This document shows positions 46,674 through 57,245 of a stretch of 64,000 bases of DNA, one piece after another; the stretch's first letter is position 1, and each line of letters begins with the position of its first letter. Position numbers and translations under genes: made by a program. Source of the stretch: Gemmatimonadota bacterium (lineage in GTDB: Bacteria; Gemmatimonadota; Gemmatimonadetes; Gemmatimonadales; GWC2-71-9); assembly GCA_003223395.1 (NCBI GenBank), contig QHUZ01000035.1, positions 1 through 64,000 on the forward strand, in the 5' to 3' direction. Under the pieces are notes generated by a model, which did not search any database, was not told the DNA's origin, and was given only the letters and a program-made list of their open reading frames with translations.

Positions 46674-49274
46674 TCAGTTTACCGGAATCCAGTAGCTGAC
46701 CTTCACCGCAAAGAAATTGTCCCCTCGCGCTCCGAACGATCGGGCCAGATCGTCGAAGCCCACTCCGCGCACGACGGACTGCGAGCCATTCTTGTTCTGT
46801 GCCCACACGAGGTAGAGCGTGCTGCCGGGCCGCCACTCCCAGCGCAGCACGGCATTGCTGCGGAATGACAGGACGTTGAAGTCGGGGTTGGGGATCGCGA
46901 CGGTGTGCGTAGGACCGTCGGTGACGGTGTAGTCGCCGACCGAATCGCGCGCGATCGTCGTTCCGCTCGTGCCATACTGCCGCAGGTTGAACGTGCGCGG
47001 CGCGGCCAGCTCGCCGATACCGTAGTAGTGACCGCTGGCGGCGAACGGCTCGCCCCAGACCTCGAGCGTCAGATCAGGGCCGACAGTGTAGTTCGCCCGC
47101 AAGTCGATCAAGAACGTGCTTTGATCGATCGGACTGAAGACGTAGCGCGAGCCGTACGTGGCCGGCGATCCGCCCGTATCGACGGTCATCACCCATTGGC
47201 GCGGCTCGATATCCCGCAAATAGTTGGGCGTTACGGAAAACTGGAAGCGGGTTGACGGCCGAATCGAGAGCTCGCCGCTCAGCCGGTACGTCTCGGCGCC
47301 GAGCTCACCCTTTCCGTAGTAGACGCGCGCCACCCACCCAGTTCGAGCGCCGAACTTGCTGGAAAGGCGCACGACCCAGTTCGCGAATGCCGGCGTCGCC
47401 ATGGTGGGACCACCGCGTGTCCGGGAGTGATCGAACGAGCGCGGCTGGTAGTCGACGTACGAGCTCAAGTCCCAGAAATTCTTGAGTGTCACCTCGCCAT
47501 AGAGTTGGCTGGACAGGATCTGACGATCGCCCCCAAAGTCGTACTCCGTGAATGCACTCAGCGTAGCGACGTAATTCTGGAACCAGGCGCGCGGCTTCGT
47601 CTGCCGGTAAATCATCCCCGCGAACGCCGTACGGCCATCGGCATTGCCGAGCCGTCCGGCATCGTTCGGGTCATAGGCCGGTGATTCCCAGCCGTATTCG
47701 AGATCGAACAACAAGTTGCCCTTGGTTTTTCGGAACCAGAGATCCGCGACGGAGCCCGTGAACGAGGTGCGCGTGGAGTCGTAGATCAGATAGCGCGCGT
47801 CGGGACGCTGGAAGTAGTGCACCGGGGAGCGCTGCACCCGGTTGATGTCACGCGCGTCGCCGCGCAGATGCGTGAACCCCGCGTAGCCGCGCAGCTCGTA
47901 CGCGCCGCGGTCCCAGCGTAGCACCCAATCCGCGCCGCCCGCATAGGCACGCCTCGTGTAGTTCGGGGCGAGCAAGCTGTCGAGGTCACGCTGCACCGTG
48001 GTGAACGTAACGCCCACGACCGATTTCGAGGCTCCGAACTCCTGCTGCAGGCGCATCACACCGTATCCGGCGGGCGGCGCGACCGCGGTGCGGCCGAAAG
48101 TCCGCGTCGTGGAGTCGTAGGTGCGCGCGAACTCGCGTCCCGTGACCGCAGTGAGAACACCCAGCGACATTCCCGTCGCGAGGCGCCCGGTGACCTTGGC
48201 GGCGCCGAGAATCGTGGCATTCTGCGGGCAATCCACAAAATCCCCGCTCGCATCGCAGCCGGGCCGCGCCCCGATCCGGCGAGAGTAGAAATAGCTCGGG
48301 CCATTGCCCCGCAGCAGCTGGCTCCCCTCGGTGAAGAACGGCCGCTTCTCGTCGAAGAAGAATTCGAAGCCGGACAGATTGACGATCGACGGGTCGGCTT
48401 CGACCTGCCCGAAGTCCGGATTCATCGTGGCATCGAGCGTGATGTTCGGACCGAGGCCCATCTTCAAGTCGGCGCCGAGGCGACCCGCGAAGTTGGCCTT
48501 GTCGTTGAACGGATCGACCGGGCTCACGTTGCTCAGGACGCGCGAGTCGACGGCGCCGTACGGCATCAGCTCGAGCCGCCGCGTCGGCTTGATGCCGGCG
48601 ATCCCCACCAGCTCGCCCATGAACGACGACCATCCGGTACGATTGGTGGGCACCGGGATCCAGTAGTCGTCCTCGCTCGTTACGGGATTCCAGCGGTTGG
48701 CATTGAAGCCCCAGACCTGGACCGGCTGATTCGTGAAGCGGAGCTGCGAAAATGGGATGCGCATCTCCGCCGTCCAGCCGAGGGCGTCGATGTTCGCTTT
48801 CGCCTCCCACACGGGGTCGAACCCCCAGTTTATGTCGTTTTCATTGTCCGACGCATGATACCAGTCCGCCCGCACCCCGGATGCCGAGATGCCGAACGAG
48901 TACGCGGTGCGCTTGTCGTGGTAGCTGTCGAACGACACCCACATGCGTTCAGACTGGAAGGTATTGTCGCGGCGTGAGAGCGGCGCCTGAATCTTGGACG
49001 GATCACGGCTGAACATCCGCGCGCCGACATAGATCGCATCGTCGTCATAGAAAATCGCGATGCGCATGCTGTCGCTGGGGGCCGCGCCTTCCCGCGGGCG
49101 CTTCTGGACGAAGTCAGTGATCCACGCCGCCCGTGCCCAGGCCGGATCGTCGAGCCGTCCATCGACGGTGATGGACGTGCCCTGCCGGCGAATCGCCCGG
49201 ATCTGCTTGGCCGGCGGTGCCTCGCTCGTCTGCAGCATGACGGCGGCGACGAAGCACAGCGCGCCGACGCTCAA
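46674..49274 (-). CDS. DUF5916 outer-membrane beta-barrel protein with carbohydrate-binding-like N-domain
   Basis: An 866-residue exported protein. A leader (VGALCFVAAVMLQTSEA) is followed by a CBM9-like sandwich (ITVDGRLDDPAWARAAW, YDDDAIYVGARMFS, MWVSFDSYHDKRTAYSF) and then a long barrel of alternating beta strands of the DUF5916 type, ending in an aromatic strand (FFAVKVSYWIPVN). The role is unknown, possibly glycan or peptide interaction at the outer membrane. The start is TTG 49274, sharing TTGA with the M56 gene stop, so it is the third gene of the BlaI-M56 operon. Confidence 0.88.
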   Translation of the reverse strand: MSVGALCFVAAVMLQTSEAPPAKQIRAIRRQGTSITVDGRLDDPAWARAAWITDFVQKRPREGAAPSDSMRIAIFYDDDAIYVGARMFSRDPSKIQAPLSRRDNTFQSERMWVSFDSYHDKRTAYSFGISASGVRADWYHASDNENDINWGFDPVWEAKANIDALGWTAEMRIPFSQLRFTNQPVQVWGFNANRWNPVTSEDDYWIPVPTNRTGWSSFMGELVGIAGIKPTRRLELMPYGAVDSRVLSNVSPVDPFNDKANFAGRLGADLKMGLGPNITLDATMNPDFGQVEADPSIVNLSGFEFFFDEKRPFFTEGSQLLRGNGPSYFYSRRIGARPGCDASGDFVDCPQNATILGAAKVTGRLATGMSLGVLTAVTGREFARTYDSTTRTFGRTAVAPPAGYGVMRLQQEFGASKSVVGVTFTTVQRDLDSLLAPNYTRRAYAGGADWVLRWDRGAYELRGYAGFTHLRGDARDINRVQRSPVHYFQRPDARYLIYDSTRTSFTGSVADLWFRKTKGNLLFDLEYGWESPAYDPNDAGRLGNADGRTAFAGMIYRQTKPRAWFQNYVATLSAFTEYDFGGDRQILSSQLYGEVTLKNFWDLSSYVDYQPRSFDHSRTRGGPTMATPAFANWVVRLSSKFGARTGWVARVYYGKGELGAETYRLSGELSIRPSTRFQFSVTPNYLRDIEPRQWVMTVDTGGSPATYGSRYVFSPIDQSTFLIDLRANYTVGPDLTLEVWGEPFAASGHYYGIGELAAPRTFNLRQYGTSGTTIARDSVGDYTVTDGPTHTVAIPNPDFNVLSFRSNAVLRWEWRPGSTLYLVWAQNKNGSQSVVRGVGFDDLARSFGARGDNFFAVKVSYWIPVN

Positions 49275-51724
49275 TCGCGGCTCAGCGCCTCGAACACCCG
49301 CCCGCGATCGTACTGCGAGCTGATCGACGCGGCGTCCGTACGAATGGCGGCCCGGATAGCGTCGTCGTTCGGGGCACGCTTGATGACGGCGAGCAGCAGC
49401 TCCGACAGCTCGTGATCCGACCCGATCCCCTTGGCCGATTCCAGCACCGCGAGCGCCACCGGGCGCGACAGCTCGCCACGCTCGACCACGCTCAGCAACG
49501 TGCGGCCATGCTCGTAGTCGGAGCCGAGATTGTTGGCGGCGGCGAAGAACGCGGGCCGCAGCGCGTCGTCCAGCACGTACGAACCGCCAACTCCGACGAG
49601 CAGCTCGGCCAGCTCATAGTCGGAATTGAGGGTCTTCGCCGACGTGAGGACGTCGAGCAGCATCCCCGGACTCATCCCGGTCCGCTTGACGACGGCATCC
49701 AGCACACGACGATGCTCGTAGTCGGACTGCAGCTTGTTGGCCGCTTTGAAGAACGCGGGCCGCACGGCCTCATCGATCGGGCGGGCCGTGTTCACCTCGA
49801 TCAACAGCTCGGCCAGCTCATAGTCGGACCCGATGTCGGCGGCGGCGGCGAGCATGGCCGCTTCCATGGCCGGCGTGAGACCGGGGCGCGACAGGGCGGC
49901 CTTGAGTACGCGATGGCGCTCGTAGTCGGAGCCGATCTTTTTGGAGGCCGTGACGAAGCCCGCCTGCATCGTTTCGGTGAGCGGTTGCTTCTCGGCAACT
50001 GCAATCAGAAACTCGGCGAGCTCATAATCACTGTCGATGGTTTGACCGGCCATCGTGACGAGCCGCTCGTACCCCGCGGCATCCAGCTTGCCGCTCTCGA
50101 CGGCAGCCTGGTAGTAGATCCGCCGCGTGTAGTCGCCCGTGAGCTCGCCGAGCTCTTCGATCAGTCCTTGAATGCCGCGGCGCTCGAGAATCCAGCGCGA
50201 GCGCTCTTCGGCCATGAAGCCCGTGCGCCGCAACAGGAACGTCAGGGTCTCCTTCAGCCACGCCTTGGCCTCGTCGTCGAACGGCCGGATGTCGCCGTCG
50301 ATCTTGTAAACATGCTCGAGTCCGTTGTTGCCGCGCTGAATCGTGAGGCGGCGATCGTGCGCACCATAATCCACCTGGATGACGATCCGCCCGCCCGACG
50401 CGAGCGTGGCGATGTCGCTGAAATCATCGTTGAACGTGAACTTCCCGTCCCCATCGAACGTGACAGCGCACCGCCCCACCGTGATACTGAGCGTCACGAC
50501 GTCGCCGTCGCCCTCATGGCTATGCGACGAGCGACGCGAGCCATCCGAGCTGCAGCCACGCAGGGTGTCGATTGCCGCCGACGGTCGCCGCGACGCCGCC
50601 GCCGAGGCTCTTGGCGCTGGAATCCGCGGAATCGTATCGAGTGAGCCGGAAGCGGGCGCCGGCTGCGCCACGCGTGGCGCAGCGGCCGCAAGCGGCACGA
50701 CGACCGCGATCGCCGCCAGCCATGCGGGCAGCGCGGCGCGGGGGGAGAGCGTATCGCGGCGCCGCCGCGTGTCGAGCACGTCGATCAGGCGCGTCGCAAG
50801 CTGGGCCGGCCGCGCCATCGCGACCGTCGCGAGCGAGGTCGCGCGCGCCGCGCGCAAGCCGCGCGCGATGTCCAGCAGATGCGTGGCATACGCCGATGGG
50901 GTCGCGCCGGCGCGCAGCACGTGATCGTCACATGCGCGCTCCCGCTCCTCGCGCAGGCGAGTCGCCGCAAGCCACACCAGGGGATGGAACCAGTAGACCG
51001 CGCACGCGATGCGCGCGATCAGCTGAATCATGAAATCATGGCGCTTGACGTGGGCCAGCTCATGCAGCAACACGTCGCGCCGCCGCTCCGCACTCCACGC
51101 GTCCGCTTCAGCGGGCAGCAGAATCGCGGGACGGCGAATGCCCCACGTCATCGGCATCGCCGGACCCTGCGCCTGCAGCAAGCGGACGTGACGGTGGAGT
51201 CCCAGCTCCAGCGATAGCTCCTCGACCAAGATGAGCCACGCCTCGTCCTGGACCGGCCGCGTGACGCGATCGAGCCACATGATTCGGGCCAGCCCCACCG
51301 CCAGCAAGATCAAGACGGCTCCGACGCCGCTGAGCCATACCGGCAACACGAGCGCGGTCCAATCGGACGTCAGACGCCAGCGAACCGGTTCTTCACCGAC
51401 TGTCGTCGATGGTACCGAACTCGCTTGGTGCGCGGCCACCGTCGGGACGACGGGCGCAGCAGGTGTGGGGCCGGGTTTCGGCGCGGGCGGCGTGATCTGC
51501 TCGGCGTCGAACGCGACCGGCACATCGAGTCGCGGCCAACCGGCGAGGCTCCAATTGGGCAGCAGCGCGGACGCGAGTGGCAGTACGAGCACGCCGCCAC
51601 AGGCGAGGGTCCACACCAGGTGCCGCAGCGACGCGGGCGAGCGGCGCAGGAACACTGTCACCAGGGCGGCCAGCAGCAGCAGCACGGTCGCCTTGACGAA
51701 GGCATCAGCGAGGAACGCGATCAT
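49271..51724 (-). CDS. M56 (BlaR1/MecR1-like) membrane metalloprotease with SDYE repeat array
   Basis: An 817-residue protein. The N-terminal M56 domain has membrane helices and the zinc motif HELAH at residues 221-225, and a downstream CDDHVLRAG ligand region. A fourth membrane segment (LPAWLAAIAVVVPLAAAA) leads to an external part. In place of the penicillin-binding sensor of BlaR1 there is a small beta domain (residues about 400-520) and, from about residue 560, eight repeats of about 34 residues. Each begins near xxxSDYE, alternating two types (DYELAELL and DYExxRVL). Signal sensing by cleavage of its partner BlaI is expected from the family, and the ligand is unknown. Confidence 0.9.
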   Translation of the reverse strand: MIAFLADAFVKATVLLLLAALVTVFLRRSPASLRHLVWTLACGGVLVLPLASALLPNWSLAGWPRLDVPVAFDAEQITPPAPKPGPTPAAPVVPTVAAHQASSVPSTTVGEEPVRWRLTSDWTALVLPVWLSGVGAVLILLAVGLARIMWLDRVTRPVQDEAWLILVEELSLELGLHRHVRLLQAQGPAMPMTWGIRRPAILLPAEADAWSAERRRDVLLHELAHVKRHDFMIQLIARIACAVYWFHPLVWLAATRLREERERACDDHVLRAGATPSAYATHLLDIARGLRAARATSLATVAMARPAQLATRLIDVLDTRRRRDTLSPRAALPAWLAAIAVVVPLAAAAPRVAQPAPASGSLDTIPRIPAPRASAAASRRPSAAIDTLRGCSSDGSRRSSHSHEGDGDVVTLSITVGRCAVTFDGDGKFTFNDDFSDIATLASGGRIVIQVDYGAHDRRLTIQRGNNGLEHVYKIDGDIRPFDDEAKAWLKETLTFLLRRTGFMAEERSRWILERRGIQGLIEELGELTGDYTRRIYYQAAVESGKLDAAGYERLVTMAGQTIDSDYELAEFLIAVAEKQPLTETMQAGFVTASKKIGSDYERHRVLKAALSRPGLTPAMEAAMLAAAADIGSDYELAELLIEVNTARPIDEAVRPAFFKAANKLQSDYEHRRVLDAVVKRTGMSPGMLLDVLTSAKTLNSDYELAELLVGVGGSYVLDDALRPAFFAAANNLGSDYEHGRTLLSVVERGELSRPVALAVLESAKGIGSDHELSELLLAVIKRAPNDDAIRAAIRTDAASISSQYDRGRVFEALSRD

Positions 51725-51725
51725 G

Positions 51726-52115
51726 TCAGCGGCCCTCCTTCCGCGCGTCAGCAATGAGCTGGCTCAGGCGGGCGAGCTCCGCGTCGGAGAGGCGTGTGGA
51801 AGAGAGATCGAGCAGCGCCGCAACGGCCTGCTCCGTGGAACCGTCGAAGAAGGTGTGGAGCAGCTGTCGCAGCGCCGATGCCCTAGCGCGCTCGCGCGGC
51901 ACGGTCGGCACGAACACATAGCGGGGGCCGTCTTCCTCATGACGCAGATGCCCTTTCTCCTCGAGCACCCGCAGCAACGCGCGCACGGCGGAATAACTCG
52001 GCGGCTCGGCGAGCTGATCGAGCACCTCGGCGGCGGTGGCGCGGCCGGAGCGATAGATCACATCCATGATCTCCCGTTCCCGGCGGCTCAGCTGCGTATT
52101 CGTTTCTTTGGACAT
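51726..52115 (-). CDS. BlaI/MecI/CopY-family repressor
   Basis: A 129-residue winged-helix repressor: LSRREREIMDVIYRSGRATAAEVLDQL, then YSAVRALLRVLEEKGHLRHEEDGPRYVFVPTV, with a C-terminal dimerisation/cleavage region. It is inactivated by the M56 protease in characterised homologues. One nucleotide separates its stop from the M56 start. Two operator dyads lie upstream at 52138-52174. Confidence 0.95.
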   Translation of the reverse strand: MSKETNTQLSRREREIMDVIYRSGRATAAEVLDQLAEPPSYSAVRALLRVLEEKGHLRHEEDGPRYVFVPTVPRERARASALRQLLHTFFDGSTEQAVAALLDLSSTRLSDAELARLSQLIADARKEGR

Positions 52116-52137
52116 TGCCGCTCCCCCAACGGTTGGA

Positions 52138-52193
52138 TGCTAAAAAATTAGCACTTACTGCTAAGAAAGTAGCATTGGGGGGATTCTTGTCAA
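52138..52193 (-). promoter_or_regulatory. Promoter with two BlaI-type operator dyads (TGCTA-N6-TAGCA)
   Basis: Minus-strand -35 TTGACA (52193-52188) and -10 TACTTT (52171-52166) are 16 nt apart. Dyad 1, TGCTAAGAAAGTAGCA (52159-52174), covers the -10. Dyad 2, TGCTAAAAAATTAGCA (52138-52153), follows 21 nt away on the same helix face. The arrangement is that of self-repressed bla/mec operons. The -35 overlaps the stop of the DinB gene. Confidence 0.8.
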
Positions 52194-52744
52194 GCGAGGC
52201 GGTTGCGGACGTTCCGGGCTTGCCAAAGATGCCGGCGGTCGTGGGCAAGAATGAAGTTGAAGTAGGAGCCCAACGGCATGCGCAGCAGGCGGTTCACCGG
52301 CGAGATCACCCGCACGTGCGCCAGATCGAGACCGTCCGCCTGGCGCACCCGCGCGCCGAGTTGGTCCCGCACCCGAACGAACTCCGGCAACACTTCAGCG
52401 CTGCGGCGGGTCGTGGCCGGAGCGACGCGAATCAGCTTGGGAGAACGCATACGCCACTTGGGAGGCGGCTCCATGGATCCCGCGACCATCCGTGCGAACC
52501 AGCCATAGCGGAACGGCCCATTCGACGTCTGTCCCTTTGCGCGTCCTTCGGCGATGGAGCGATCGAATGCCGGTAACGTCTTCGTCACACCGACGTTCAG
52601 GTGCTCCAGACAATCGAGGATCGACCAGCTGCCTTCGGCGGGATGCCAGTTCAGTTGCTCATCGGTGAGGCCCGCGGTCACCGCCCGCCCTTCCGTTTTG
52701 ATTGCCTCGATCTGATCGAGCATCGACTGGGTGTCGGCATTCAT
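52190..52744 (-). CDS. DinB-like superfamily protein (DinB_2)
   Basis: A 184-residue protein with the DinB_2 layout: LDQIEAIKTEGRAVTAGLTDEQLNWHPAEGSWSILDCLEHLNVG at the N-terminus and LRMPLGSYFNFILAHDRRHLWQARNV at the C-terminus, giving three candidate metal-binding His (EHL, HDRRH). Such proteins bind a divalent metal and likely use a thiol cofactor. ATG 52744 follows AAGGAGG. It stands between the two BlaI-M56 modules and is unrelated to them by sequence. Confidence 0.9.
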   Translation of the reverse strand: MNADTQSMLDQIEAIKTEGRAVTAGLTDEQLNWHPAEGSWSILDCLEHLNVGVTKTLPAFDRSIAEGRAKGQTSNGPFRYGWFARMVAGSMEPPPKWRMRSPKLIRVAPATTRRSAEVLPEFVRVRDQLGARVRQADGLDLAHVRVISPVNRLLRMPLGSYFNFILAHDRRHLWQARNVRNRLA

Positions 52745-52807
52745 GACGTGCCCTCCTTGCCGGGTCAGGGACACCGGGGTCAGGTTTCGTGACATCCCGG
52801 AGGCTCT

Positions 52808-53551
52808 ATGACCGTGTTGGCCGTCCCGCTGCTCGTGCTCTCAACACTCGCACAAACTCCTGCTCCCCGCGACCTCGTCGCACGCGCCGTTACCGCGATG
52901 GGCGGGGAGACGGCAGTGCGCGGGCTGCGTGGTTCCGCTATCGACTTCTACCAGGCGATGTTTGCCTTGGGGCAGGAAGAGACGCCGGCCTCCCCGGCGC
53001 GAGCTAATTTGACGGTCGGCCGGCAAGTGACGGACTATGCGGGCGACCGCATGCTGATCACAACGGAGGGCCGCAACCCAACCGGTGCCGTCAACAAGGT
53101 TCGCCGCGTGATCGCCGGCAGCATCGGGATGACTGAGACCAACGGCGTGCCGGCGCCGGACAACCCCGGGCAGGTAGCCACCCTCGAACGGTTCATGCGG
53201 CGTACACCCGAGCGATTGCTCCTCACAGCACTGGATAATCCCGCGGGCGCGGACACGCTCGATCTCTACTTCGATCGCCGCACGGGACTGCTGGTCCTCA
53301 CCGAGACGCTGACCGACGATCCGATCCTCGGCGATCGTGTCACGCGCACCGCGTTCACCCGCTGGCAGGACGCCGGCGGGGTGCTGCTTTGGCGGCAGCT
53401 CGACGTCGAAGTGAATAACCGGTTGCAAAATCATAGCGTCGCCACGGCCATCAGCACGAATCCCGCGCTGTCCGATAGCATGTTTGCGATTCCCGACTCC
53501 ATCGCCGCTCGCGCGCAGCGGAGCGATGCCACGCCGCCACCCGTGGGGTGA
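52808..53551 (+). CDS. N-terminal part of a secreted metallo-beta-lactamase-fold protein (broken gene)
   Basis: A 247-residue frame with leader MTVLAVPLLVLSTLAQ, followed by the sequence region typical of proteins that carry a helical/beta pre-domain ahead of an MBL hydrolase (VARAVTAMGGETAVRGLRG, RVIAGSIGMTE, FTRWQDAGGVLLWRQLDVEV). The frame ends after ARAQRSDATPPPVG, where the MBL core with its HxHxDH would be expected. A matching C-terminal MBL fragment follows in another frame. The product, if made, lacks the catalytic core. Confidence 0.7.
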   Translation: MTVLAVPLLVLSTLAQTPAPRDLVARAVTAMGGETAVRGLRGSAIDFYQAMFALGQEETPASPARANLTVGRQVTDYAGDRMLITTEGRNPTGAVNKVRRVIAGSIGMTETNGVPAPDNPGQVATLERFMRRTPERLLLTALDNPAGADTLDLYFDRRTGLLVLTETLTDDPILGDRVTRTAFTRWQDAGGVLLWRQLDVEVNNRLQNHSVATAISTNPALSDSMFAIPDSIAARAQRSDATPPPVG

Positions 53552-53795
53552 CGCGCAGGTCGTTGCGTACCGCCTGCCCACCGCACACGCCGAAGGGATG
53601 CTCGCGGTCTACGTCCCCTCCGCCAGGATTCTGTTCCAGAGCGACGTGGTCAACGCCACGCCGACCCCGCCCGCCGGGGGGAGCGCCGAGTTGGTGAAGT
53701 TCGTGAAGGCGCGCGGGATCGCGGTCGACCGGGTCGCGGGGGGGCATGGCGTGGTGCTGCCGTGGGCCAATGTGGAGCGCGCCGCCGCTCCGTGA
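53535..53795 (+). pseudogene. C-terminal metallo-beta-lactamase-fold fragment, out of frame with the preceding part
   Basis: The frame reads DAQVVAYRLPTAHAEGMLAV, YVPSARILFQSDVVNATPTP and DRVAGGHGVVLPWANVERA, the last third of a secreted MBL-fold hydrolase. The His in TAHAEGM and Asp in FQSDVV correspond to late metal-site segments. About 150-200 residues including HxHxDH are missing between this and the upstream frame. The join is near 53535-53555. Confidence 0.65.
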
Positions 53796-53797
53796 AG

Positions 53798-53841
53798 TAC
53801 GAAACGCATCGTATTGACAAGTACGAAGTCTTTCGTATTTT
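53798..53841 (+). promoter_or_regulatory. Promoter with two BlaI-type operator dyads (TACGA-N6-TCGTA), probably leaderless
   Basis: Consensus -35 TTGACA (53814-53819) and -10 TATTTT (53836-53841) with a 16-nt spacer. Dyads TACGAAACGCATCGTA (53798-53813) and TACGAAGTCTTTCGTA (53822-53837) flank the -35 and fill the spacer. ATG 53848 lies about where transcription should begin, and no Shine-Dalgarno sequence precedes it. Confidence 0.85.
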
Positions 53842-53847
53842 GCACCT

Positions 53848-54228
53848 ATGATTCGTCCCACCAATGCAGAGCTGGCCATTCTGGGCGTGCTGTGGCAGCG
53901 CGGACCCAGTACCGTGCGCGACGTGCACGAGGCGCTGCGCGCGGCGCGCGGCGGCGTCGTCGGATACACGACGGTCCTCAAGCTCCTCCAGATCATGACC
54001 GAAAAGAAACTCGTCAAACGGGACACCCGCTCGCGCACACACGTGTATGCCGCCGCCGTTTCCGAGGCAACCACCCGAGATCACTTGCTGTCTGATCTGG
54101 TAGACCGGGCGTTCGGAGGGTCGTCGCTGGCGCTCGTGCTCCAGGCGTTGTCCACTACCCGCGCGACCCCCGCCGAGCTCGAACAAATCCGACGCCTCCT
54201 CGATGAGAGGAAGGGAGATTCGCGATGA
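53848..54228 (+). CDS. BlaI/MecI/CopY-family repressor
   Basis: A 126-residue repressor: PTNAELAILGVLWQRGPSTVRDVHEAL, GYTTVLKLLQIMTEKKLVKRDTRSRTHVYAA, and a C-terminal region RDHLLSDLVDRAFGGSSLALVLQAL corresponding to the dimerisation helices. It differs clearly from the other BlaI in this window, and its operators have a different half-site. It overlaps the M56 gene by 4 nt. Confidence 0.95.
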   Translation: MIRPTNAELAILGVLWQRGPSTVRDVHEALRAARGGVVGYTTVLKLLQIMTEKKLVKRDTRSRTHVYAAAVSEATTRDHLLSDLVDRAFGGSSLALVLQALSTTRATPAELEQIRRLLDERKGDSR

Positions 54229-57200
54229 ACGCAACACATGCGCTGGGATGGGCGCTCGTGCATTTCCTGTGGCAGGGCGCGGCACTCGCGATTCTCCTGG
54301 GCGTCGCCCTCGCGCTCATCCGGCCCACGGCGGCGCGGACGCGCTACACGCTTGCGATGGTCACGCTGGCTGCGATGTTCATTCTTCCCATTGCGACGAC
54401 GCTGCGACTGTACGATCCCGCAGTTTCGACTGCGACCAAGACATTCGTTGCGCCGGAGCCATCGTCGGACCTGACGGCCTCCCCCTCCCCAACACCACGC
54501 GGTGCGACCGTCAAGTCGCTGCCGCTCATCGCGTCCGCGACGCAGCCGAACAGCGGGTCGGCACGACTCACGCTGCTCCGTGATCGCCTCGAACCCGTCT
54601 TGCCCTGGCTCGTCGTCGTGTGGGTAGTGGGAGTCTTGATCCTTTCAGTGCGCCTGGCCTACGGGTGGATGGGGGCACACCGCCTGCGGACGCACGGCAC
54701 GCGCGCCGTGCCCGAAGCACTGCAGCAGGTGCTGGCTCGGCTCGCCGCGCAACTGCGCCTGAACCGGCCGGTGCGGCTGCTGGAATCGTTGCTCATCGAA
54801 GTTCCCGCCGTCGTCGGGTGGCTGCGTCCGGTCGTTCTCGTACCGGCCAGCGCGCTCACCGGCCTGACGCCGCAACAACTCGAAGTCTTGCTCGCGCACG
54901 AGCTGGCGCATGTGCGTCGCTACGATTACCTCGTCAACATCGTCCAGTGCGTCATCGAGACGTTGCTCTTCTATCATCCGGCAGTGTGGTGGGTCTCGCG
55001 CCGCGTCAGGGAAGAGCGCGAGCACTGCTGCGACGATCTCGCGGTCGCCGTGTGCGGCGATCCGCACCTCTATGCCACGGCGCTCGTCGGTATGGAACGT
55101 ATCCGCTCGACGACACCGCGCCTGGCGCTCGCGGCTACCGGCGCCGGCGGCTCATTGCTCACGCGTGTCAGACGGTTGATCCTTCCGGCAACGGCGCGCA
55201 CGGAATATTTCCCGCGCTGGGCCGCCGGTATCGCCGGGATGCTCGCCGTGACTGTCGGCCTCCTGACAACGGGCAGCCGTCGCTTGGCGGGCGAGCCCGC
55301 CACGGATGTCGTCGCCGATACGACCCGCGCGGCGCCGGACACCGTCCTCCGCCACCCCGACCCCTCGCAGCCACTCGCGCAGCGCTGGGACTGGGCACGC
55401 GCCCAGGCCCGGCAGCTCAACCGCCGCATGTACTGGCTCGGGTACGCGATCAAGCGGCCGTCGTGGCTCGAGCACTCGGTGTACGTCGATCGTGGCATGG
55501 AGGTGAAGGGTCAGGACGTCACGATCAGCGGCCGCTTGTTCGGGGACTTCCAGGGTTTCCTGTTCCACGGCGTGCGCCTCGCGCGCTTGACGGGGAGCAA
55601 CGATTCCGACGACATCGTGATCCTGTTGGGATTCACGGCCGATGCCAGCGGCAAGGTCGCGCTGTCGCACGTCCACGTGGCGAGCTTCTACCTGCCGATG
55701 GACTTCCGCGGCCGCACCCTGTTCTGGCTCGGCGACGCCGCCGACGCGCAGAGTCTGCCGGTCGTCGAAGCGCTGTTCACCGCCACGTCACAGCCGGAGC
55801 TGCGCGAGGACGTCGTCGCGGCGATTGGAATCCACGGGTCGAGCAACCTGGTCGTTCCCATCCTGCAGCGCTTGCTCACGAGCCGCGAGCCGGCCGATGT
55901 GCGTGCCCAGGCGGCGGAGTGGCTGGGATTCCATCCCACGCCGGCCGCCGTCGTCGGTCTCAGCGCGGCGGCGCGCAACGATCCAGCCGGCGATGTGCGC
56001 CGGCAAGCGGCGGAGGCACTCGGCGACAACCCGTTGCCGGCCGCCACCGAGTCCACTATCGCGGTTGCCAGGACCGCGAGCGATCCGGACGCCCGGCGTG
56101 AAGCGGTGGAGGGGCTCGGCAAGAAAGACTCGGACCGCGCGCTCACCACGCTCGTGGCGATCGCCCAGTCCGATCGCGACGAGGATGTGCAGCGCGAAGC
56201 CGTGGAGACGCTGGGACAAATGCCGAACGGACGCGGGCTCAGCGCGGTCCGAGACATCGCGCGCAACCATCCGCGGTCCGATGTGCGGCGCAAGGCGGTC
56301 GAGACGTTGGGCGAGCAACTGCCGCCCGCCGAGGCGATTACCCTCTTGAAAAGCATCGCGACCAGCGATCCCAGCTCCGATGTCCGTCGCGAAGCGGTCG
56401 AGACGCTCGGTGAACGGGCGCCGACCGCCGAGACCGTCCGGGTGCTCGCGGACATCGCGGCCAACGACCGGAATGAAGACGTGCAGCGGGAAGCGGTCGA
56501 GACGCTCGGCGAAATCGGCGATCTCGGACTCCCGGCCGTCATCGAGATTGCTCGCACGCATCCCTCCACCGACGTCCGCCGCTCTGCCATCGAGACGATC
56601 GGGGAGAAGGCGCCCGCCGCCCAGTCCCTCGATTTGTTGGCGCAATTCGCGCGGCGCGATCGGGATCCGGATGTCCAGCGCGAAGCGGTCGAGCGGCTCG
56701 GCGAGCTGCACGACGACCGTGCCTACAACCTCCTCGTCGAGTTCGCGCGCAGCCACCCGGTCAGCGACGTTCGGCGCAAAGCGATCGAGACGCTGGGCGA
56801 GAAGGGGCGTGCCGACAGTGTAATGGTCATCCTCGACGATCTCGCGCGCCGCTCGGACGACGAGGACGTCGCGCGGAAAGCGGTGGAAACGCTGGGAGAG
56901 CTGCACGACGCGCGGGCGTTGGCGCTGGTGGCGCGGATCGCGCGCACGCATCCGAACGTCGACGTCCGGCGGAAAGCGATCGAGACCTACGGCGAATCGG
57001 CGCCGAGCGATTCGTCAGTGGCACTGCTCAAGAGCATCCTGGCCAGCGATGCCCCCGAGGACGTCTACAACGCCGTGCTCGAGGCGCTCGAGGAGATGGA
57101 CGATGGCGCTGGGATCCCGGCGCTCATCGAGGCCGCACGCTCACATCCCAACCGTGAGGTCCGGGCCGCCGCCCTCCGCCGCCTGGCGGAGAGCGACGAC

Positions 57201-57245
57201 CCTCGTGCGCAAAAGATTTTCGACCAGACGCTGGGGCGGCCTTAG
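54225..57245 (+). CDS. M56 (BlaR1-like) membrane metalloprotease with C-terminal HEAT-repeat array
   Basis: A 1006-residue protein. The N-terminal M56 domain has helices from residue 10, zinc motif HELAH at 225-229 and EREHCCDDLAVAVCGDP. A membrane helix follows at about 335-355 (YFPRWAAGIAGMLAVTVGLL). After a beta region (EVKGQDVTISGRLFGDF) comes a long solenoid of about thirteen 31-37-residue HEAT repeats, with consensus DVRRKAVETLGE or DVQREAVETLGE, alternating in type. BlaR1-type sensor domains are replaced by this array, so its stimulus is probably a protein or polymer. It shares TTAG with the convergent S9 gene at the stop. Confidence 0.92.
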   Translation: MNATHALGWALVHFLWQGAALAILLGVALALIRPTAARTRYTLAMVTLAAMFILPIATTLRLYDPAVSTATKTFVAPEPSSDLTASPSPTPRGATVKSLPLIASATQPNSGSARLTLLRDRLEPVLPWLVVVWVVGVLILSVRLAYGWMGAHRLRTHGTRAVPEALQQVLARLAAQLRLNRPVRLLESLLIEVPAVVGWLRPVVLVPASALTGLTPQQLEVLLAHELAHVRRYDYLVNIVQCVIETLLFYHPAVWWVSRRVREEREHCCDDLAVAVCGDPHLYATALVGMERIRSTTPRLALAATGAGGSLLTRVRRLILPATARTEYFPRWAAGIAGMLAVTVGLLTTGSRRLAGEPATDVVADTTRAAPDTVLRHPDPSQPLAQRWDWARAQARQLNRRMYWLGYAIKRPSWLEHSVYVDRGMEVKGQDVTISGRLFGDFQGFLFHGVRLARLTGSNDSDDIVILLGFTADASGKVALSHVHVASFYLPMDFRGRTLFWLGDAADAQSLPVVEALFTATSQPELREDVVAAIGIHGSSNLVVPILQRLLTSREPADVRAQAAEWLGFHPTPAAVVGLSAAARNDPAGDVRRQAAEALGDNPLPAATESTIAVARTASDPDARREAVEGLGKKDSDRALTTLVAIAQSDRDEDVQREAVETLGQMPNGRGLSAVRDIARNHPRSDVRRKAVETLGEQLPPAEAITLLKSIATSDPSSDVRREAVETLGERAPTAETVRVLADIAANDRNEDVQREAVETLGEIGDLGLPAVIEIARTHPSTDVRRSAIETIGEKAPAAQSLDLLAQFARRDRDPDVQREAVERLGELHDDRAYNLLVEFARSHPVSDVRRKAIETLGEKGRADSVMVILDDLARRSDDEDVARKAVETLGELHDARALALVARIARTHPNVDVRRKAIETYGESAPSDSSVALLKSILASDAPEDVYNAVLEALEEMDDGAGIPALIEAARSHPNREVRAAALRRLAESDDPRAQKIFDQTLGRP

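Follow-up and report, generated by a model that had tools for sequence, protein, structure and literature searches.

The stretch of DNA analysed here (the window, 64,000 nt from an uncultured Gemmatimonadota bacterium) carries two BlaI-M56 gene pairs that are probably two independent proteolytic switches of the BlaR1 type with repeat solenoids as sensors, and their twin arrangement looks like two independent modules juxtaposed. BlaI-M56 systems are known mainly as inducers of beta-lactam resistance, and BlaR1 and MecR1 classically sense by means of a penicillin-binding domain. I will refer to the minus-strand module, with an SDYE-repeat sensor, as S, and to the plus-strand module, with a HEAT-repeat sensor, as H.

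The source genome, like all sequences considered here, comes from a draft assembly (3.41 Mb, 97.6% complete, with the window on contig 69), and no M56 or BlaI match was found in it beyond the S and H modules. The order of genes is Ada-[DUF5916-M56_S-BlaI_S]-DinB-MBL(broken)-[BlaI_H-M56_H]-S9. The modules are 1.7 kb apart, separated by a DinB-family gene and a broken gene of the metallo-beta-lactamase (MBL) fold, and the H operon contains BlaI_H and M56_H and nothing else. An initial annotation had described two complete, divergent BlaI/M56 pairs, and the list of open reading frames together with a Pfam search (PF03965 and PF05569 matches) finds both of them, complete and divergent, where it had placed them. 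Absent from that annotation were the DinB-family and broken MBL-fold genes, the two pairs of operators, and the beta-sandwich (residues 409-480) in one of the sensors. At the far end of the H module, M56_H (plus strand) and an S9 prolyl-oligopeptidase-like gene (minus strand) overlap tail to tail by 4 bases (57242-57245).

The repressors, BlaI_S (129 aa; 51726..52115, minus strand) and BlaI_H (126 aa; 53848..54228, plus strand), match the winged-helix domain PF03965 with E-values of 1.4e-27 and 2.5e-23 (96.8 and 83 bits, respectively, cut-off 22.6). The sensor-proteases, M56_S (817 aa; 49271..51724, minus strand) and M56_H (1006 aa; 54225..57245, plus strand), match PF05569 with E-values of 1.8e-33 and 8.8e-31. 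The likely start of M56_S is the ATG at 51724, the TTG given in the list of open reading frames lying further up. Its M56 domain (residues 6-314) includes HELAH at 221-225, D230, E262xxxD266, Y279, and R312, and the zinc motif of M56_H consists of HELAH at 225-229, D234, and E266xxxD270, so that both proteins possess counterparts of the catalytic residues mapped in Staphylococcus aureus BlaR1: HExxH, Asp210, and E242xxxD246 (PMC9834060). The only PDB sequence match of either protein is BlaR1, and a fold search with the AlphaFold model of M56_S (overall pLDDT 82) ranks S. aureus BlaR1 first, with a target-normalised TM-score of 0.56 to its membrane-protease part. The NCBIfam BlaR1 scores of the two proteins are 98 and 88, the cut-off being 400; among named relatives, those closest to M56_S come from Gemmatimonadetes assemblies. 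The last transmembrane segment lies at about residues 328-347 in M56_S, followed by a linker of low confidence in the model, and at about 333-351 in M56_H. As far as predicted topology goes, the hydrophobic segments, the last of which precedes the C-terminal domain, fit placement of that domain across the inner membrane, and the C-terminal part of M56_S is predicted to be periplasmic.

This C-terminal part begins, in M56_S, with a beta-sandwich (B) domain (residues 409-480; 50285..50500, minus strand), recognised by its strands in the AlphaFold model (pLDDT ~81-93) and recurring in 47 of the 114 M56 proteins surveyed in the phylum. These are the proteins that scored highest in the phylum search, and neither this nor the other survey rates are therefore unbiased. 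There follows an SDYE array (residues 484-816; 49277..50275, minus strand) of seven 34-residue units and a degenerate eighth, each unit consisting of two helices. The array is modelled as an alpha-solenoid (pLDDT ~87-98) and matched no Pfam family; SDYE repeats occur in 24 of the 114 proteins. M56_H ends in about 13 HEAT repeats (13 repeat matches; residues ~508-1002; 55746..57230, plus strand), with HEAT_2 matching nine stretches at 2.4e-87 (287.8 bits, cut-off 27.7). Their central part is modelled as a solenoid as well (pLDDT ~83-94), in a model made from a single sequence and unreliable outside the HEAT part.

The repeat units, the HEAT_2 match, and the modelled solenoids agree with the initial annotation, which had one M56 protein ending in SDYE repeats and the other in HEAT repeats. 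It had also claimed that neither contains an SxxK/SDN/KTG acylation set or a penicillin-binding sensor. SxxK was sought in both C-terminal regions and was not found, so neither sensor has the SxxK/SxN/KTG set, and a Pfam scan of both M56 proteins gave no transpeptidase or penicillin-binding domain. Solenoids of the HEAT and SDYE type usually bind proteins or peptides. Those of the window are putative sensors of the switches, and might instead be effectors or anchors; since they are not of the penicillin-binding type, the stimuli are probably other than beta-lactams, as had been proposed.

The modules might nonetheless answer indirectly to beta-lactams or cell-wall damage, by way of the neighbouring MBL-fold gene or of a partner receptor. 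Such a gene does lie between them, and it is uninterrupted in the congener G255 (L242:4858-6315, Lactamase_B 1.7e-8). Moreover, the BlaR1 homologue of Mycobacterium tuberculosis is, like the proteins of the window, an M56 protein without a penicillin-binding sensor (unlike them, it has no equivalent sensor domain at all), and PknB has been suggested as its stand-in (PMC9834060). I consider this unlikely, however. Acylation motifs are absent from both C-terminal regions, and the MBL-fold gene in the window (52808-53795, plus strand) is broken by an internal loss of ~0.4 kb plus a change of frame. It sits upstream of the H operators, and therefore outside the H operon, and a search for it in the loci of G002 and G022 gave no match.

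Each module has a pair of candidate operators. Those upstream of BlaI_S, on the minus strand, are S-1 (TGCTACTTTCTTAGCA; 52159..52174) and S-2 (TGCTAATTTTTTAGCA; 52138..52153), which follow the pattern TGCTA-N6-TAGCA and start 21 bp apart. Those upstream of BlaI_H, on the plus strand, are H-1 (TACGAAACGCATCGTA; 53798..53813) and H-2 (TACGAAGTCTTTCGTA; 53822..53837), which follow the pattern TACGA-N6-TCGTA and lie 24 bp apart, flanking a TTGACA. An exact-pattern search of the 3.41-Mb genome finds each 5-N6-5 motif exactly twice, both times only at its own promoter, the patterns being strict enough that they might overlook weaker members of a regulon. S-1 and S-2 are kept in three congeners, G194, G002, and G022 (S-2 is identical in G194 and differs by one arm base in G002 and G022), and the H pair is kept in G255, with the same arms and 24-bp spacing and with different spacers. 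Allowing one mismatch did not reveal a wider regulon: there were 40 forward sites of the TACGA type vs. 21 in the reversed control, and 10 of the TGCTA type vs. 237, and since these sites are mostly scattered, with GC-rich spacers, I have treated them as chance occurrences.

The operators lie over the promoters of their own operons. S-1 overlaps the likely -10 of the S operon (TACTTT, 52166-52171), a weak one, which a spacer of 16 nt separates from the likely -35 (TTGACA, 52188..52193, minus strand), invariant in an alignment of four species; a promoter scan, at its threshold, did not report the S promoter. The only promoter-like site that the scan found in 52080-53900 is that of H, a sigma-70-type TTGACA-N16-TATTTT (53814..53841, plus strand) interleaved with both operators, H-2 lying between the -35 and the -10. 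The predicted -10 would put the start of the H transcript at or beside the ATG of BlaI_H (region 53836-53848), whose mRNA is for this reason possibly leaderless. With operators apparently private to each module, cross-talk between S and H is probably not to be expected, and the different sensors and private operators together suggest that two different signals are probably watched independently.

The operators of the window belong to a broader pattern. Near the BlaI starts of 109 pairs from the phylum there are 104 5-N6-5 palindromes vs. 30 in shuffled sequences, a comparison that overstates significance because the sequences are related. The operator classes are TGCTA, TGCTG, TGTTG, TGTCA, TACGA, and TGCGG, and the class follows the residue of the recognition helix that comes after Val-Arg or Val-Leu (Ala, Ser, Gly, or Lys). 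Ala is associated with TGCTA (21/22), Ser with TGTTG (8/8), Gly with TGTCA (4/4), and Lys with TACGA (3/3), a class whose three holders all have the distinctive helix YTTVLK. The recognition helices in the window are PPSYSAVRALLRVLEEKG for BlaI_S and VVGYTTVLKLLQIMTEKK for BlaI_H.

The third gene of the S operon encodes a DUF5916 protein with a CBM9-like N-terminal domain (46674..49274, minus strand; PF19313 7.7e-66, 223.5 bits, cut-off 22.6), a member of a family that I take to be outer-membrane beta-barrels. The initial annotation joined this gene to the operon through a TTGA overlap, and the overlap is present, with the stop of M56_S at 49271-49273 and the TTG start of DUF5916 at 49272-49274. 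Two congeners also retain DUF5916 (L039 and L041), and in both its alignment begins at the very base where M56_S ends. The partnership is recurrent: 26 of 109 BlaI-M56 pairs have a DUF5916 gene on their own strand within the 6.5 kb that follow them, vs. about 1 of 109 expected by chance, an estimate made from the approximately ten DUF5916 genes of the source genome, one of which is in a BlaI-M56 operon. In G022 (L040), M56_S runs directly up to the Ada gene and DUF5916 is missing, so the gene is dispensable.

The second recurrent partner is a soluble twin of the sensor. Downstream of HEAT-M56, 20 of 31 pairs have a HEAT protein that looks secreted, and none has a B-domain protein; with the SDYE+B type, a B-domain protein follows in six of seven pairs and a HEAT protein in none. 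Exact cognate operators occur near the starts of downstream soluble-twin or DUF5916 genes at seven places among the pairs of the phylum, as compared to 0.4 for non-cognate classes and 0 in the equivalent upstream stretch, which makes both the twin and DUF5916 likely targets of BlaI. In domain types and in having BlaI upstream, the M56 proteins of the window resemble the HEAT-M56 and SDYE-M56 proteins found elsewhere in the Gemmatimonadota and in other phyla, but their modules lack the secreted twin (HEAT or B/SDYE) that, along with DUF5916, lies downstream of many of the latter. The possibility that M56_H is an M56 protein fused to a secreted HEAT twin was considered and rejected: its linker finds a match only in the M56 protein of L089, with no convincing match to any secreted HEAT protein.

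The linkage of BlaI to M56 and both sensor architectures are already common in the phylum. A survey of M56 architectures and their BlaI neighbours, suggested by the initial annotation, found BlaI directly upstream in 109 of the 114 M56 frames. Of the Pfam families matched by 108 C-terminal regions, HEAT was the most frequent (35), and the first 25 included no transpeptidase family. HEAT-M56 and SDYE-M56 proteins are also found in some Acidobacteria, Eisenbacteria, and related phyla. The literature searched, with subscription papers and preprints mostly outside its scope, contained no paper linking M56, BlaR1, and HEAT repeat, and none naming DUF5916.

The initial annotation favoured shared ancestry of the two modules followed by diversification of their sensors. 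As a local event, in which a BlaI-M56 module was duplicated and the sensor subsequently altered, this would account for two such pairs lying 1.7 kb apart, but I find it highly improbable. The M56 domains of M56_S and M56_H are only 24% identical in the survey alignment, whereas M56_H is 58% identical to the protein of G111, from another genus. In the tree the two lie in distant clades, M56_H grouping with the proteins of G111, G255, and G242 only, and M56_S with those of its genus and other SDYE types. A sister relation of the two proteins is rejected (p 1e-34), the joining of their clades is rejected more weakly (p 0.034), and the grouping of all HEAT types, as expected if such sensors had a single origin on M56, is strongly rejected (p 1.5e-5). 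All three tests used a set of 60 rows, which was chosen, and its groups named, after a first tree had been seen, and they share long-branch caveats. M56, then, has probably acquired HEAT sensors on two or more occasions. Finally, within the genus, the interval between Ada and S9 contains only the S module in G002, S without DUF5916 in G022, and only H in G255. The modules are evidently gained and lost independently of each other, which private wiring would permit.

Two irregularities were seen in the relatives. In G194 a frameshift within the SDYE repeats interrupts M56_S (L041:4433); it is either real or an error of assembly. On contig 72 of G255 (L042) there is another HEAT-M56 frame, a shorter one, for which the 1.7 kb upstream yielded no BlaI.

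That BlaI is the substrate of its neighbouring protease is indicated by three observations. The near-obligate pairing has been given above. The putative cleavage site is Phe in 102 of 106 BlaI proteins in the survey alignment, including residue 90 of BlaI_S (HTF|FDGS) and residue 89 of BlaI_H (DRA|FGGS), a column inferred, by its sequence pattern, to be equivalent to Phe102 of S. aureus BlaI, where cleavage leaves Phe as the P1' residue (PMC9834060). Lastly, BlaI and M56 have diverged in step (Spearman 0.78, with none of 500 permutations as high). The same observations make it very unlikely that M56 and its solenoid act mainly as a membrane-anchored quality-control protease or scaffold, with BlaI a simple autoregulator of M56 levels rather than its main substrate, even though an H operon encoding BlaI and M56 alone would suit that arrangement.

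Conservation of the M56 catalytic residues and of the P1' Phe of BlaI makes destruction of the repressor by the protease, as with BlaR1, the best mechanism for the two proteolytic switches. The sequence shows the gene pairs, the catalytic and cleavage residues, the candidate private operators, the predicted solenoid folds, and the DUF5916 overlap; the rest of the scheme would run as follows. In each module, BlaI dimers would occupy the two inverted repeats over their own promoter. The multi-pass membrane protein would expose its M56 zinc protease to the cytoplasm and its solenoid to the periplasm. Contact of the solenoid with its cue (most likely some protein or peptide, judging by the usual ligands of such solenoids; my guess is an envelope protein) would activate the protease, which would then cut BlaI before the conserved Phe and so derepress the operon. 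The output of S would be more sensor and the overlapping DUF5916 product, probably an outer-membrane barrel. For H, at the level of strict operators, the output would be limited to BlaI_H and M56_H, in which case M56_H might itself serve as the effector, or an effector gene might have been lost. The different operators would prevent one module from acting on the other.

The BlaR1-BlaI and MecR1-MecI systems of Staphylococcus and Bacillus (PF05569, PF03965) share with the window an adjacent repressor and membrane zinc protease (HExxH...ExxxD), inverted-repeat operators, the cleavage Phe of BlaI, and a C-terminal domain after the last membrane helix. They differ in the sensor, a penicillin-binding domain in place of a beta-sandwich and SDYE solenoid or HEAT repeats, and in the output, beta-lactamase or PBP2a in place of the module itself and DUF5916. 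A pair of BlaI circuits insulated from each other, with paired sites, has a precedent in Clostridium thermocellum. Its BlaI_0696 and BlaI_1845 have paired inverted repeats and regulons of one to three operons, as determined by DAP-seq and EMSA (PMC8457756). There, as is predicted for the window, each of two BlaI proteins in one genome has its own pairs of inverted repeats and a very small, autoregulated regulon that includes blaR1 genes (PMC8457756). The letters of the operators are different, the sensors are not described as solenoids, and there is no DUF5916.

More speculatively, and at somewhat less than even confidence, there may be a class of BlaI-M56 switches in which solenoids sense envelope proteins, a secreted copy of the solenoid induced by the switch gives feedback, a DUF5916 barrel is the usual output, and paralogues are kept apart by a BlaI helix code dominated by one residue. 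What is new here are the apparently private operators, the predicted one-residue operator code, and the recurrent DUF5916 and secreted-twin partners with candidate cognate operators. DUF5916 is thereby placed in a regulated context, and the operator code provides a direct route to reading regulons and to testing the cue of each sensor. BlaI-M56 appears here, in several phyla, as an envelope sensor of general use whose solenoid heads are interchangeable.
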